Below are positions 11,114 to 17,578 of a stretch of 53,836 nt of DNA, piece by piece (within the stretch, counting starts at the first letter, position 1; each line of letters begins with the position of its first letter). Below the pieces are notes generated by a model. The model was not told the origin of the DNA. It saw only the letters and a program-made list of their open reading frames with translations, and did no database searches. The DNA lies in NCBI GenBank assembly GCA_003696565.1, contig RFHA01000206.1, positions 1 through 53,836 on the forward strand, in the 5' to 3' direction. Made by a program: the position numbers and the translations under genes. The DNA comes from Chloroflexota bacterium (GTDB lineage Bacteria; Chloroflexota; Anaerolineae; Aggregatilineales; Phototrophicaceae).

Positions 11114-12946
11114 TTAACTCTGCTCATCTTGACGATTTAAATCTGCAAGCAGCTCAGCCAATTCTGGATCAAGAAATAGTTGCCCGGTGTTTACCCCTTT
11201 TTTGCGTTTGACGACACGATAAACTGTTTGAATATGGTCATACCCGTTCAGTGCCCCATCCACTTGACGAGCCTCACACTCAAAGAACTCTTTAACATGT
11301 TCATAAGTTGCCTCACTGATGATAATTTCACCGGCTTGTGCTTGGCTCTCTAAAAATTTACTGACGTTTGTTGCTTCCCCCAATGCAGAAAATTCTTGCC
11401 GGTCTGCACTGCCAATATTGCCTAAATATGCCGTACCAGTGTGAATACCAATGCCATAATATAGCCGCTGATCTTCTGGCATAATTTCATGGAGTGCTAA
11501 TAAGTCATAAATAATACTCATCGCAGCCCGAACAGCCCGTATCGCATGATCCTGTTGTGGGTTAAGCTGAGTATTAAATAATCCTGTGACGGCATCCCCC
11601 ATATACTTGTCAACAATCCCCTCATAAAGCTGAATACCATCACTAGCAAGGCTAAGATACTTATTAATGATTTCCATCAATTGTTCCGGGCGCAAATGTT
11701 CGCTAAAACTGGTAAATCCACGTACATCTGTTGCAATTGCAGTAATGTATCGTTCTTGTCCGGCGACATTGACATCGTCAATACTACGGATGCTATCAAT
11801 TAACGCAGCCGGGAGGTATCGTCGCAATTCAGCTAATTGTGCTTCTCGTGCTTTCTTTTCCGTCAGATCTGCTAAAACAATTGCCACACCTTGCTTTTCA
11901 CCGTGATCTGCATCCAACAACGGACTAATAATTATATTCCAAACACGTTGTCCTATTTGGGGCAACACCGGCTTAATTTCCAATGTGCGCTGCTTGGAAT
12001 CCGCCATAACTAAATCAACGGCTGTATTGAATTTATCGTCTTTCAACGGCGTAATTTCATCAAGAGACCGCCCTACCACCTCCGGTTGATGGAGAATATT
12101 ATGGGCAGCAGCATTACACGTCGTAATGATTCCCGCCGCGTTCACAGTTATTACACCATTAGCGATAGAATCAAAAACATTGCGCATCAACTCACGCATG
12201 TCGGTTAGTTGTTGAATTTGATAGCGAATCCGTTCAAACAAGCGAGCGTTTTCAATAGCAACACCAGCTTGGTTGGAAAAAGCGTTCATAATCTCCAAAT
12301 CGCTTTGTTGGAATAAGCCCGTCACCACACGGTTATCACAATAGACCACACCAATAACTTCATCCCGAACTTTAAGTGGCACCGCCAAAACACTGCGTAA
12401 AGCAAAGCCAACAATACTTTGATGTCCTTGGTAACGGGTATCTAAACTGGCGTTATCTGTTACAACAGCTTGCTTTGTGCGGACGACTTCGTTGACAATC
12501 GTCTTACTGATAATCAACTCATTTCGTTTTCCATTTGGTTCATCCCCTTGTGGTAACAATAGATTTTGATCGATACCATGCACCACACGGAAATCATCAA
12601 ACTCGCCCGTTTCTTCGTTTTTCAACACCAAGTAACCGCGCTCTGCGCCAGTAATGTTGACAATAGTCTGCATTACCTGGTTCAACACATCTTCTGTTTC
12701 TAAGGCGGAGTTGACCACAGCAGTTGTATCGGCTAGAGCGCGTAATTTTTGCAATTCCGCGAATGACTGGGAAATTTGTGTCGATAAGGTGGCGATTCGT
12801 CTTTTTAGCAAGCGTAAGTTATCTAACGAACCAGAAGGCAGGCTCATCCCACGTGCTTCTAATAAGTCACGCTGGCTAGTTAATAATTGCATTAAATTAT
12901 CGATCTGCGTTGTTAATTGATTAAGATGTTCCTGGATAGATATCAC
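11114..12946 (-). CDS. GAF-PAS-class III nucleotide cyclase, metal-binding half complete
   Basis: A 610-aa cytoplasmic signalling protein: N-terminal coiled region (1-70), GAF domain (about 80-240), PAS domain (about 250-365) and class III cyclase domain (about 395-580). Both metal aspartates are present (Asp407 in ATDVRGFT, Asp451 in KYMGDAV), as is the adenine-site Lys447. The transition-state Asn527 is present, but the arginine expected four residues on is Phe531. The substrate-selecting position is Ser520, closer to class IIIb Thr-type enzymes than to Asp-type. It is the second gene of a pair, overlapping the first by four bases. A homodimer should be impaired; see findings for likely pairing with its neighbour. 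Confidence 0.9.
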   Translation of the reverse strand: MISIQEHLNQLTTQIDNLMQLLTSQRDLLEARGMSLPSGSLDNLRLLKRRIATLSTQISQSFAELQKLRALADTTAVVNSALETEDVLNQVMQTIVNITGAERGYLVLKNEETGEFDDFRVVHGIDQNLLLPQGDEPNGKRNELIISKTIVNEVVRTKQAVVTDNASLDTRYQGHQSIVGFALRSVLAVPLKVRDEVIGVVYCDNRVVTGLFQQSDLEIMNAFSNQAGVAIENARLFERIRYQIQQLTDMRELMRNVFDSIANGVITVNAAGIITTCNAAAHNILHQPEVVGRSLDEITPLKDDKFNTAVDLVMADSKQRTLEIKPVLPQIGQRVWNIIISPLLDADHGEKQGVAIVLADLTEKKAREAQLAELRRYLPAALIDSIRSIDDVNVAGQERYITAIATDVRGFTSFSEHLRPEQLMEIINKYLSLASDGIQLYEGIVDKYMGDAVTGLFNTQLNPQQDHAIRAVRAAMSIIYDLLALHEIMPEDQRLYYGIGIHTGTAYLGNIGSADRQEFSALGEATNVSKFLESQAQAGEIIISEATYEHVKEFFECEARQVDGALNGYDHIQTVYRVVKRKKGVNTGQLFLDPELAELLADLNRQDEQS

Positions 12947-14715
12947 GCTCTAAAAACCTCGTATATACCAACAAGTTGTTGTCGTCCTTTTACTTGAATA
13001 CGTGGACGCTCAACAAAACGAATATGGGCAGGCAAGCCACCATGCTGCAAAATATGCTGATAGGTTGTCTCATGAATGATAATTTGCCCTAGCCCGGTAT
13101 TTTCTTCGATCCTTTTTGATAAGTTAATCGTATCGCCGATGGCGGTAAACTCACGACGATTCAAACTCCCTACATTTCCCAGGGTAGCAATCCCCGTATT
13201 CATCCCAATGCGATAAAAGTGTGGTTCTGGGTTAATACCTAATTCCTGATAAAACGCAATAAACGCATCCCGTATATCCAGCGCAGCTTCTACCGCTTGC
13301 AAGGCGTGGTTTTGCATTGGGTTTAATTGTGTATTGAACAATGCCATCACAATATTCCCCATGTATTTATCAACAATCCCCTTATGACGATGAATGGCGT
13401 TTGTAGCACGAGCAAGATAACCGTTGATTTGCTCCATAATTTGCTGGGGACGATAATCCTTAGGGAATGATTTAACTGACCGAACATCGACATAAACACA
13501 GGTTACTTCGCGGCTTTCTCCACCTAATGCCAGGCTAGAGATTGCATGGATATTATCCACCATCTCCGGCGGCAAATACCGCTTCATCATCAAAATCAAT
13601 TGCTCATTTCCACGCTGCTCAGTCAGGTCATCCATAACCATCACAACCCCTTGAATATTCTGATTAGCGTCTTTTAAGGGGCTAAAACGCATATTCACCG
13701 CGATGCGTCCACGCTGTGGAACATCTAATTCAGCCTCAATCGTCTGATCCGCATCTTTAGTACGGATATTAGCTAAATAGGCATCTAAATTTGCACTAAC
13801 ACCAGGAATAACTGCCGTTAACCGTTGCCCAATCACATCCTGCTGTGACTTACCTAAAATCAATTCTGCTGCTCGGTTAAATAATACAATGTGATGCTTA
13901 GCGTCTGTGGTGATAACCCCACTACCGATAGAGGCAAACACATTGTTCATTAAATCCTTCATCTCACGAATTTCTACCAAAGCGCGCTGAATTTGCTCAT
14001 ACAATTGGGCATTTTCAATCGCAACAGAAACTTGGTTAGCAAAAGCAGCAAGCAATCGTTTTTCTCGTTCTGTAAAAATCCCAGCGCGCAGTCTATTATC
14101 AACATAAACCGCGCCAAGTGTCTTGTTTTTGTATCGTAGCGGCACACATAAAACAGAGCGCAAAGTCATTTGTAAAATACTTTGCCCGCTTTGTAGCCGG
14201 TCATCCTGATAGGCGTTATCTGTTAAAAGTGGCTCGCCGGATCGAAACACTGCTTGTAAAATAGTCGTACTGATTTGCGGTGTTTGATTGATCGTTTCAG
14301 TCCCGACTTCATTATCCCGAATGACACGGAACATTAACTCACCAGTTTCATCATCTCGTAAAATGATGAATCCTCGTTCAGCATTCGTCAAACTGATGAC
14401 GACATCCATCGCCTGCGTTAAGATATTATCCAAATTCAGGGATGAGTTTAATTGAGCTGTTGTATCTGCTAAAAAACGTAACTGAGACAACTCAACTTGA
14501 TTTTCATAAAAGGCTTTTTCTAGTGTTTCAATATCAGCTTTTACTGAAGATAATGCTTGTAATGCCATCGGTGGTAATTTGAAGCCGCGTGTTTTCAGTA
14601 GATCACGCTGGTTACGGAGAAGCATTTCAGTTTCTTGTACAAGAATCTTTAGCTGTCGCAGTTCACCTATAGCGGTTGTGCTGGTTTTTTCTGACATATT
14701 GTTTTCACAGCTCAT
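12943..14715 (-). CDS. GAF-PAS-class III nucleotide cyclase, catalytic Asn/Arg half complete
   Basis: A 590-aa paralogue of the downstream cyclase with the same order: coiled N-terminus, GAF (about 90-245), PAS (about 255-365) and cyclase domain (about 400-588). Asp410 is kept, but the following GFT is SVK, and the second metal aspartate is Asn454 (KYMGNIV). The adenine-site Lys450, Thr524, transition-state Asn531 and Arg535 are all present. So it resembles a C2-type subunit that needs a partner to supply metals. The start has AGGA nine bases upstream. A 73-base divergent region separates it from the FtsX-family permease gene. The GAF and PAS ligands are unknown. Confidence 0.9.
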   Translation of the reverse strand: MSCENNMSEKTSTTAIGELRQLKILVQETEMLLRNQRDLLKTRGFKLPPMALQALSSVKADIETLEKAFYENQVELSQLRFLADTTAQLNSSLNLDNILTQAMDVVISLTNAERGFIILRDDETGELMFRVIRDNEVGTETINQTPQISTTILQAVFRSGEPLLTDNAYQDDRLQSGQSILQMTLRSVLCVPLRYKNKTLGAVYVDNRLRAGIFTEREKRLLAAFANQVSVAIENAQLYEQIQRALVEIREMKDLMNNVFASIGSGVITTDAKHHIVLFNRAAELILGKSQQDVIGQRLTAVIPGVSANLDAYLANIRTKDADQTIEAELDVPQRGRIAVNMRFSPLKDANQNIQGVVMVMDDLTEQRGNEQLILMMKRYLPPEMVDNIHAISSLALGGESREVTCVYVDVRSVKSFPKDYRPQQIMEQINGYLARATNAIHRHKGIVDKYMGNIVMALFNTQLNPMQNHALQAVEAALDIRDAFIAFYQELGINPEPHFYRIGMNTGIATLGNVGSLNRREFTAIGDTINLSKRIEENTGLGQIIIHETTYQHILQHGGLPAHIRFVERPRIQVKGRQQLVGIYEVFRA

Positions 14716-14788: not shown

Positions 14789-17578
14789 ATGATTAACCGA
14801 CTCTTTTTCTACGTTCAATATGCGCTTCGCAGTCTGTATCGTAGCCGTCGCTGGTCATTATTCGCAATTTTATCAGTCACCGCTGGCGTGGCAGCAGTTG
14901 TTGCCCTGCGTAGCATGGGCTTGGCAATTCAAGAATCGCTTACAACCAACATTCAAGCAAGCAACCATGGTGATATTACCCTAGAACGCGGTTCATTAAC
15001 GGGTGGATTGAATTTTGGGGCAGCAGTAGAGGAAAACGTTTTCCAGGATTATGAAATTACTCAAATTCAACACTGGGCAGAGCAAAATAACGCGCAAATG
15101 ACACAATATATCACCACGAACTTACAACTATCCGAAATAAATGCACAAGTAAGCCGGCTCAGTTTTATAGCAGCCATTTTGATTGACCCGAACACCTACC
15201 CACCTACCCAAGACATTGTCGCACTTGAACCATCCGGCGTTCCTTTAAGTGATCTCTTTAAAGGCGGATATGAGGTTGTCATCAGTCAGAACTTAGCAGC
15301 AACACAAAATTTATCTGTCGGTGATGCTGTGCGTGTGACTGGCTCAACAGAACCGTTTATCATACGCGGGATCGTACCAACAAGTTCAGAGGCTGGTTTG
15401 AGAGATATTTTCGCAGCGTATTTCGGTTTTGCATACTTTGACTATTCACATACTGCCACTTTATCCGTTGATCCACGCCCAAATCGTATCAGTTTGTTGA
15501 TGCCAGCTAATACCCCACTAGAAACAATTGAACAGGCTGGGAACGAGCTACATGAGCTTTTACAAGCAACCGGAACATTTACCCGCGTGCTAACAGTTGC
15601 TAGCATCCTTGAACAAAACCAAGCCATTGCTGATATTTTGGGGCGTTTTATTGTCGTTTTAGGGTTAGGGTCTTTGTTGATTGGTGGTGTTGGTATCATC
15701 AACACGATGTTAGTCATGGTACGTCGCCGAACATCTGAGATAGCTGCACTCAAAACATTCGGATTAAAAGGACGACAAATCGCCATTTTATTCATGCTAG
15801 AGGCGTTATTCATTGGCATAGCTGGCAGCATATTGGGTTCGATCACTGGCACATTGTTGAGTCGTTTTACTAATCAATATGGTGAAACATTTATCCAACA
15901 ATCCTTGCCTTTTCGTATTTATCCAGAAGCGATTATATTCGGTATCGTGTTGGGAATTGTGGTGACAGCCGTTTTTGGGGTCATTCCTGTCCTTACCGCC
16001 GTACAAGTCCGCCCCAACATTATCTTACGCCCCAATGAGCCTTACATCCCAACACTGGGAATTATTCACTCACTTGGGGTTATCATGTTTGTTGTAATCT
16101 CATTGGGTGTCATTGCTGGTCAAATCATTGGACCGTTTCCTGATTGGGTTACCACATTCGAATTTATTCCACTGCCACAAAACATCACAGCGGGCATTTT
16201 GACTGTAGCAGGTACCCTACTCCTGCTTATGATACTCACCGGAATGATGTGGTTATTGGTGTGGTTAATAAGCCGTATGCCAGCATTCGGTTGGTTAGAT
16301 TTAAGCATAGCACTCAAAAATCTTAAAACAGGACGGTTACGTACAGCTACCACCATTATAGCTATCAGCACTGGCATGTTTGCCATCAGCAGCATCTCAT
16401 TTTATACAGCAGGAGTTCAAGAAATTTTAGCCGTGACATTAACCGAGTCCTTTGGGGGGAATGTATTAGTGCTAACACCGGCTTCTTTCAGAAGTGGGCA
16501 GTTCCCCGCCCTAGCTCAATTTGCAGAAGAACAATTTGAGCGCAAATTAACACAACTTGACGGTATTCTGTATCGAACACAAATCTTGTCTTATAGCGCA
16601 CTCATTACCGCAGTTGACGGTCAATCAACTGGAGCCAAAGATAACACCGACGAACGCGAGGCATTGTTAGATGCAATAAGGCAAGCCGGACAGTCCAATA
16701 ATTTTGGGCAAATCCGCGAGCTTAATCAAGCCTTTGAAGAAGCATCACGATATTGGATAAACATCACAGTACGAGACACCGAAAACCCAGATTTTTTTGG
16801 ACCAGCTGTCAACCAAGGCGTGACGATCTCACAATCAGATTATGGTCGCCCCGTTGGGATACTTCGCCTAGACCCTAGGATAGCCGAACTCGGCATTGGA
16901 TTAGGATCACAGGTCACGTTACAAATTAAAGGGATTTCATACACCATCGACATTGTTGGGGTTGTTTATCTTGATAGCTTCAATATAGAGACAAACTCAT
17001 TTGGTGATTTATTGCTACCACCTGGCTTAATCACGAATACCCCGCCAGATATTCGTATTGATAGTTTGCTGGTTGAAGAAAAGCAAATTAGCGATGTTAT
17101 TTTGGAGTTATCAACCATGGTTGGGTTTTTTCCGTTGGATGTTAAGCTGATTGATGGTATCGTCTCTCGTTTGATTGATCAGTTCACTGCCCTACCGTTG
17201 TTAGTTGGTATATTATCATTAGGTGCTGCAGCAGTCATCATGGCGAATACCGTTGCCTTAGCCACATTTGAACGCCGGCGACAGATCGGTATTCTTAAAG
17301 CAATTGGCTTAAAAGCAAATCGGATTTTACGCATTATGGTGCTAGAAAACCTGATTATCAGTTTAGTTGGTGCTATATTCGGCATCGGCACAAGCGGGTT
17401 CATGTTTGGGGCGTTCAGCTTGCTAGGATGGGATGAGTTAGTCTTAATTCCTGACGATTCTCAGACAGTGGTAATCGCTTTATTGATTGCCGCGCTGATG
17501 ATTGCGAGTTTGGCAACGATTTTTAGCGCAAATATCGCTACACGTGAACGTGTTTTGAACGTTCTACGGTATGATTAA
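14789..17578 (+). CDS. FtsX/MacB-type ABC transporter permease with duplicated core
   Basis: A 929-aa integral membrane protein. An N-terminal helix (about 20-40), a large extracytoplasmic MacB-like domain (about 45-260) and an FtsX domain of three helices (about 275-410) are followed by two further helices, a second extracytoplasmic domain and a second FtsX domain (about 790-925). This is the ten-helix DevC/LolC-like double-FtsX layout used for lipoprotein or macrolide export and other mechanotransmission. No ATP-binding subunit is encoded next to it. The start has AAGGG ten bases upstream. It is divergent from the cyclase pair. Cargo unknown. Confidence 0.87.
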   Translation: MINRLFFYVQYALRSLYRSRRWSLFAILSVTAGVAAVVALRSMGLAIQESLTTNIQASNHGDITLERGSLTGGLNFGAAVEENVFQDYEITQIQHWAEQNNAQMTQYITTNLQLSEINAQVSRLSFIAAILIDPNTYPPTQDIVALEPSGVPLSDLFKGGYEVVISQNLAATQNLSVGDAVRVTGSTEPFIIRGIVPTSSEAGLRDIFAAYFGFAYFDYSHTATLSVDPRPNRISLLMPANTPLETIEQAGNELHELLQATGTFTRVLTVASILEQNQAIADILGRFIVVLGLGSLLIGGVGIINTMLVMVRRRTSEIAALKTFGLKGRQIAILFMLEALFIGIAGSILGSITGTLLSRFTNQYGETFIQQSLPFRIYPEAIIFGIVLGIVVTAVFGVIPVLTAVQVRPNIILRPNEPYIPTLGIIHSLGVIMFVVISLGVIAGQIIGPFPDWVTTFEFIPLPQNITAGILTVAGTLLLLMILTGMMWLLVWLISRMPAFGWLDLSIALKNLKTGRLRTATTIIAISTGMFAISSISFYTAGVQEILAVTLTESFGGNVLVLTPASFRSGQFPALAQFAEEQFERKLTQLDGILYRTQILSYSALITAVDGQSTGAKDNTDEREALLDAIRQAGQSNNFGQIRELNQAFEEASRYWINITVRDTENPDFFGPAVNQGVTISQSDYGRPVGILRLDPRIAELGIGLGSQVTLQIKGISYTIDIVGVVYLDSFNIETNSFGDLLLPPGLITNTPPDIRIDSLLVEEKQISDVILELSTMVGFFPLDVKLIDGIVSRLIDQFTALPLLVGILSLGAAAVIMANTVALATFERRRQIGILKAIGLKANRILRIMVLENLIISLVGAIFGIGTSGFMFGAFSLLGWDELVLIPDDSQTVVIALLIAALMIASLATIFSANIATRERVLNVLRYD

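Follow-up and report, generated by a model that had tools for sequence, protein, structure and literature searches.

In mammalian adenylyl cyclases the C1 and C2 domains together form one catalytic site, the other site being degenerate (PMC4174876, PMC2576301). Soluble guanylate cyclase (sGC) is a heterodimer of which neither homodimer is active, and a regulatory role has been proposed for its pseudosymmetric second site (PMC3591389). According to the prevailing view, such one-site heterodimers are a eukaryotic feature and bacterial class III cyclases are homodimers; a search of open-access papers turned up no published class III heterodimer from bacteria. Here we describe two overlapping cyclase genes, an upstream one (U) and a downstream one (D), in a stretch of 53,836 nucleotides of a Chloroflexota bacterium (contig RFHA01000206.1; hereafter the window). 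We propose, with a probability of about 0.88, that their products form an obligate heterodimer with a single adenylyl cyclase site, to which D would bring the metals and U the base, ribose and phosphate groups, and with one degenerate site.

Active-site residues of the two proteins

The genes and the residues on which the proposal is built are the following; the counts refer to the homologous proteins compared in the next section.

12943-14715, minus strand: gene U, open reading frame of 590 amino acids (coiled coil, GAF, helix, PAS, helix, cyclase); proposed C2-like subunit with the base, ribose and phosphate residues
11114-12946, minus strand: gene D, open reading frame of 610 amino acids with a GTG start, architecture as in U; proposed C1-like subunit with the metal aspartates
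12943-12946, minus strand: 4-base stop/start overlap of U and D (GTGA), from the reading frames
13354-13356, minus strand: U Asn454 (AAT) in place of metal Asp-2, first lesion; none of 93 distinct U has Asp here
13111-13113, minus strand: U Arg535 (AGG), catalytic Arg kept, as in all 93 distinct U
13123-13125, minus strand: U Asn531; kept in 93 of 93 distinct U
13132-13134, minus strand: U Asp528, base-contacting, from residue mapping
13366-13368, minus strand: U Lys450; kept in 93 of 93 distinct U
12988-12990, minus strand: U Lys576 of the VKG motif; all 93 distinct U have Lys or Arg here
11354-11356, minus strand: D Phe531 (TTT) in place of the catalytic Arg, second lesion; Arg in no readable D
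11726-11728, minus strand: D Asp407, metal Asp-1 kept; present in all readable D
11594-11596, minus strand: D Asp451, metal Asp-2 kept; present in all readable D
11606-11608, minus strand: D Lys447, from residue mapping

The initial annotation had placed two overlapping minus-strand cyclase genes at 11114-14715, and its coordinates, frames and residue numbers are all exact; the 4-base overlap is real. Checked residue by residue, D keeps Asp407 and Asp451 and has Phe531 for Arg, and U keeps Asn531 and Arg535 and has Asn454 for the second Asp and SVK for GFT, as that annotation had stated. The mapped residues are Asp407, GFT410-412, Lys447, Asp451, Glu524, Asn527 and Phe531 in D, and Asp410, SVK413-415, Lys450, Asn454, Asp528, Asn531, Arg535 and the VKG-motif Lys576 in U. 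New in this list are the position of the base-contacting Asp (Glu524 in D, Asp528 in U) and the VKG Lys, which U keeps. A full set of metal, base, ribose and phosphate residues is found only when D Asp407 and Asp451 are combined with U Lys450, Asp528, Asn531 and Arg535, and each chain alone fails to supply it. The reverse interface (U Asp410 and Asn454 with D Lys447, Glu524, Asn527 and Phe531) is without one metal Asp and without the Arg. The suggestion that U and D share one complete, C1/C2-like site and that the set of each homodimer is defective is thus supported at the level of residues. The Arg484-type residue of mammals was dropped as a diagnostic, being unconserved in D and in single-copy relatives.

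Co-conservation of the losses in homologous pairs

A class-wide search covered 396 genomes, nearly all compared genomes being metagenome-assembled, and the neighbourhoods retrieved gave 33 complete U-D pairs. U had the Lys, Asn and Arg in 33 of 33 and the metal Asp-2 in none (Asn in 18, Thr in 9, Ser in 6), and D had each metal Asp in 33 of 33, the Arg in none, and had also lost the Asn in 28. A scan of named genomes enlarged the set to 93 distinct U, alongside about 90 D that could be read. Lys, Asn and Arg were present in all 93 U without exception, and metal Asp-2 in 0 of 93, a count that is biased at this position in the named-genome set, where one of the two peptide patterns requires [NTS] at metal position 2; neither the sampling of D nor the first 33 pairs is affected. 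The readable D always kept both metal Asp and never the Arg, again without exception. The VKG Lys was left out of the counts, the D alignment being poor at that position. Additional loci from other families of the order had the same pattern wherever the genes were readable. Co-conservation of the complementary substitutions, which the initial annotation had proposed to look for, was therefore borne out: among about 100 distinct pairs, drawn from several families within one order, metal Asp-2 and Arg showed 0 exceptions, a regularity that is not due to chance. When all columns were scanned without guidance for those that single-copy relatives conserve and only one partner has lost, the metal loop, metal Asp-2, the Asn and the Arg were the chief ones returned. 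Single-copy relatives from other orders hold the full residue set, except for an altered base Asp in two of them; L079, although tabled as single-copy, is a U protein with its partner truncated at the end of the contig.

Such losses could also mean that U and D are decaying pseudo-cyclases, kept for GAF/PAS sensing or as a scaffold and non-catalytic. Each protein has indeed lost textbook catalytic residues, and another intact cyclase domain is present in the genome. However, decay would not leave complementary sets, with both Asp in every readable D and the Lys, Asn and Arg in every U, across several families, and we consider this explanation extremely improbable.

The order of the genes is fixed as well. 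U lies upstream of D on the same strand in 33 of 33 pairs, and among these fully read pairs 19 have an overlap of 4 bases and 5 one of a single base; gene starts were taken mechanically, so that longer overlaps are unsure. Genes with overlaps of the 4-base type are often translationally coupled by termination-reinitiation (PMC6728339).

The record titles of the named-genome scan were Chloroflexota lineages apart from one cyanobacterial title, which is probably mis-binned. The pair in a record titled Pleurocapsa minor (L142, JAHHHY010000002.1) is typical and lies on a contig of 770 kb, equal in length to one from a genome (G055) placed in the window's own family; the bin is probably mis-labelled. 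One U homologue (G455:C12:220661-222424) has an in-frame TAG; this pair is possibly broken, or a base was miscalled.

Origin of the pair

Trees were built with the active-site columns removed. U, D and the single-copy genes formed three separate groups with support of 99, 97 and 100; D had been paraphyletic in a first tree, through weak deep branches, and became a single group at 97 with a thinned and broader set. The changes counted on the tree fell almost entirely on one side. Asp-1 changed 8 times in U and Asp-2 12 times, never to Asp in the latter case, and neither changed in D or in single-copy genes. Conversely, the Asn changed 16 times, the Arg 11 times and the Lys once in D, and none of them in U or in single-copy genes. 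Each half-site thus appears to have drifted solely in the partner that would not need it. Since the separate groups go together with repeated one-sided changes, the complementarity would be more than a single inherited accident.

The family is present in 145 of the 154 genomes of the order, one order of Anaerolineae; of those without a match at threshold, seven belong to the window's family and two do not. Copy number is two in every family with matches except one (f6), in which it is one, and the single gene of f6 had the full residue set in 6 of 6 examined. In the genomes with a single partner that were checked, the locus runs into a contig break. Because U, D and the single-copy genes form separate groups with the single-copy genes as outgroup, the pair would derive from one duplication inside this order, after f6 with its intact single gene had branched off. 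Most likely, the complementary state was reached independently of animal C1/C2 and of sGC.

Alternatives and proposed mechanism

Several points weigh against the heterodimer. The evidence for it is comparative and the structural models are of single chains, and the U counts of the named-genome set carry the pattern bias described above. The D homodimer may have weak residual activity, since Asn527 is still there in the D of the window and the Arg is replaced by Lys in 7 of about 90 D. In one genus-level clade the base Asp of U is replaced by His, Asn or Ser, and substrate preference may vary there.

The retained Asn527, the Lys in some D and the two metal Asp would suit a D that works as a weakly active or unusual homodimeric cyclase, with U as nothing more than a bound regulatory pseudo-enzyme. 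Yet U keeps exactly the half-site that D has lost, its Lys, Asn and Arg remaining unchanged on the tree while other U positions drift, and a pure regulator would have no need of Lys, Asn, Arg and VKG; in most D, moreover, the Asn is gone too. This alternative therefore seems to us very unlikely.

A catalytic heterodimer might also make cyclic GMP or another cyclic nucleotide, or use both sites. The clade with His, Asn or Ser at the U base Asp, and the Glu at this position in D, speak for such variants. Guanylate cyclases have Glu and Cys as guanine-specifying residues where adenylyl cyclases have Lys and Asp. These guanine-specifying residues are not found in U; the U of the window has the adenylyl cyclase pair Lys450/Asp528, with the Lys present in 93 of 93, and the second site is without one metal Asp and without the Arg, which makes this possibility unlikely. 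ATP as the substrate is what the residues point to, because the Lys is invariant in U and its partner Asp is present in the window.

Because complementary loss is joined by a fixed gene order with overlap and by a single origin from an intact gene, a C1/C2-like heterodimer with one complete site fits the data best, and the following scenario may be drawn. U and D would pair through their N-terminal coiled coils, GAF/PAS regions and cyclase domains into a head-to-tail cyclase dimer. At the working interface, Asp407 and Asp451 of D would hold two metals, Lys450 and Asp528 of U would contact adenine, Asn531 the ribose, and Arg535 and Lys576 the phosphates. This single composite site would turn ATP into cyclic AMP (cAMP), and the second interface, being degenerate, would be at most regulatory. 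The overlapping operon would couple the synthesis of U and D, and signals at either GAF/PAS set would gate the one site. We infer heterodimer formation, homodimer inactivity, the cAMP product and two-input gating from sequence comparison.

The degenerate interface has features of its own. Of 93 U, 81 have an acidic residue at the first metal position, and most D have the Lys and an acidic base residue, so that it looks as if it still binds a ligand. In genus g7 and relatives (L136, L147, L157), the altered U base Asp is often accompanied by a Lys to Gln change in the half of D that would be idle, and this clade may have shifted in substrate preference or in the chemistry of its pseudo-site. 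It is possible, if rather doubtful, that in an independent bacterial two-chain C1/C2-type adenylyl cyclase of this kind the two sensor sets serve as a coincidence detector and the degenerate site has turned into an allosteric site for a ligand, comparable to the forskolin pocket.

Domains and structural models

The domains of the two proteins are placed as follows.

12946-13527, minus strand: U cyclase homology domain, residues ~397-590 (Pfam; structure match)
11198-11761, minus strand: D cyclase homology domain, residues ~396-583 (Pfam; structure match)
14014-14439, minus strand: U GAF domain, residues 93-234 (Pfam)
13612-13950, minus strand: U PAS domain (Pfam)
12254-12697, minus strand: D GAF domain, residues 84-231 (Pfam)
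~11852-12190, minus strand: D PAS domain (Pfam)

The class III cyclase family PF00211 scored above the Pfam cut-off in both proteins (E 4e-14 and 6e-15). Single-chain AlphaFold2 (AF2) models had a mean predicted local distance difference test score (pLDDT) of 83 each, and in them a two-helix N-terminal coiled coil opens U, D being laid out alike. Aligned with VIA-align, the modelled cyclase domains matched Pseudomonas CyaB (3r5g) with Z 26.0 for U and 26.7 for D, and the models matched the C1 chain of 1cjk with Z of about 22-23. Calling one protein C1-like and the other C2-like from fold comparison was rejected, as both halves have one fold.

U and D are about 40% identical and each has its own GAF and PAS, which makes the two-input idea reasonable. 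A cysteine of the GAF domain (U Cys190, D Ala188) is conserved in 99% of U, in 100% of single-copy relatives and in 22% of D; this asymmetry, among the few such columns outside the cyclase domain, is possibly a difference between the sensors.

Neighbouring and other cyclic-nucleotide genes

An ABC-type permease gene (14789-17578, plus strand) lies upstream of U and is divergent from it. Its relatives, in 11 of 80 homologous loci, are the most recurrent neighbour, and beyond it none was broadly conserved among the 80. The U and D genes are therefore the unit, and the context names no pathway. No U-D gene fusion was seen among the homologous loci; a long open frame in one genome (G407) was considered as such a fusion and rejected, its coordinates being out of frame with U. 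A plasmid search gave partial, distant matches only.

The same genome has at least one further apparently intact cyclase domain and seven proteins with cyclic-nucleotide-binding domains, which makes cAMP reception plausible. Two further cyclase-domain proteins of this genome (G000:C428:6152-6652 and C228:4642-5028) look degenerate: one has no GFT segment in the part that was matched, and the other, within a 2030-residue open frame, is missing several catalytic motifs.

Comparison with known cyclases

The closest solved catalytic domains, in sequence and in fold, are those of Synechocystis Cya2 (2w01), Pseudomonas CyaB (3r5g) and Spirulina CyaC (1wc0), and the single-copy relatives in the class hold an intact set of residues, as homodimers of this kind should. 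In homodimeric bacterial cyclases one chain bears all catalytic residues, whereas neither U nor D does. In this bacterial order, a single-copy cyclase with an intact site would have given rise to two complementary proteins that depend on each other, and a gene of the ancestral type persists in f6.

The division of labour proposed for U and D is that of the mammalian transmembrane adenylyl cyclases, in which the metals come from C1 (D here), the base and transition-state residues from C2 (U here), and the second site is degenerate. Those enzymes differ in having 12 membrane helices in place of GAF and PAS and in their separate origin; U and D are separate proteins from overlapping genes, with one cyclase domain in each open reading frame rather than two in one polypeptide after six membrane helices each. 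With the alpha and beta subunits of sGC, the pair has in common two homologous chains between which the active-site residues are split. Unlike sGC, U and D are bacterial and have the Lys/Asp base residues of adenylyl cyclase, and Pfam placed no H-NOX/HNOBA or haem domain in either, only GAF and PAS preceding the cyclase domain.

The chytrid rhodopsin guanylyl cyclases NeoR/RGC are likewise obligate two-chain heterodimers with two different sensors, but RGC1/2 retain all catalytic residues (PMC8815786), whereas in U-D the need for pairing would reside in the active site. A direct precedent was made in the laboratory: D300A and R376A chimaeras of Rv1625c are inactive singly and active again when co-expressed (PMC4821796). 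Their lesions are the same two as in U and D, with the difference that these mutants were man-made from a homodimer and that the U-D state is natural and order-wide.

We regard U-D as a natural experiment, soluble and free of membranes, on the reasons for which cyclases abandon one of their two sites, with a bearing on whether a dead site turns regulatory and how two sensors may gate one catalytic centre. Most likely, it is a natural bacterial two-chain adenylyl cyclase with a complementary site, which would work like C1/C2 and sGC and belong to neither.
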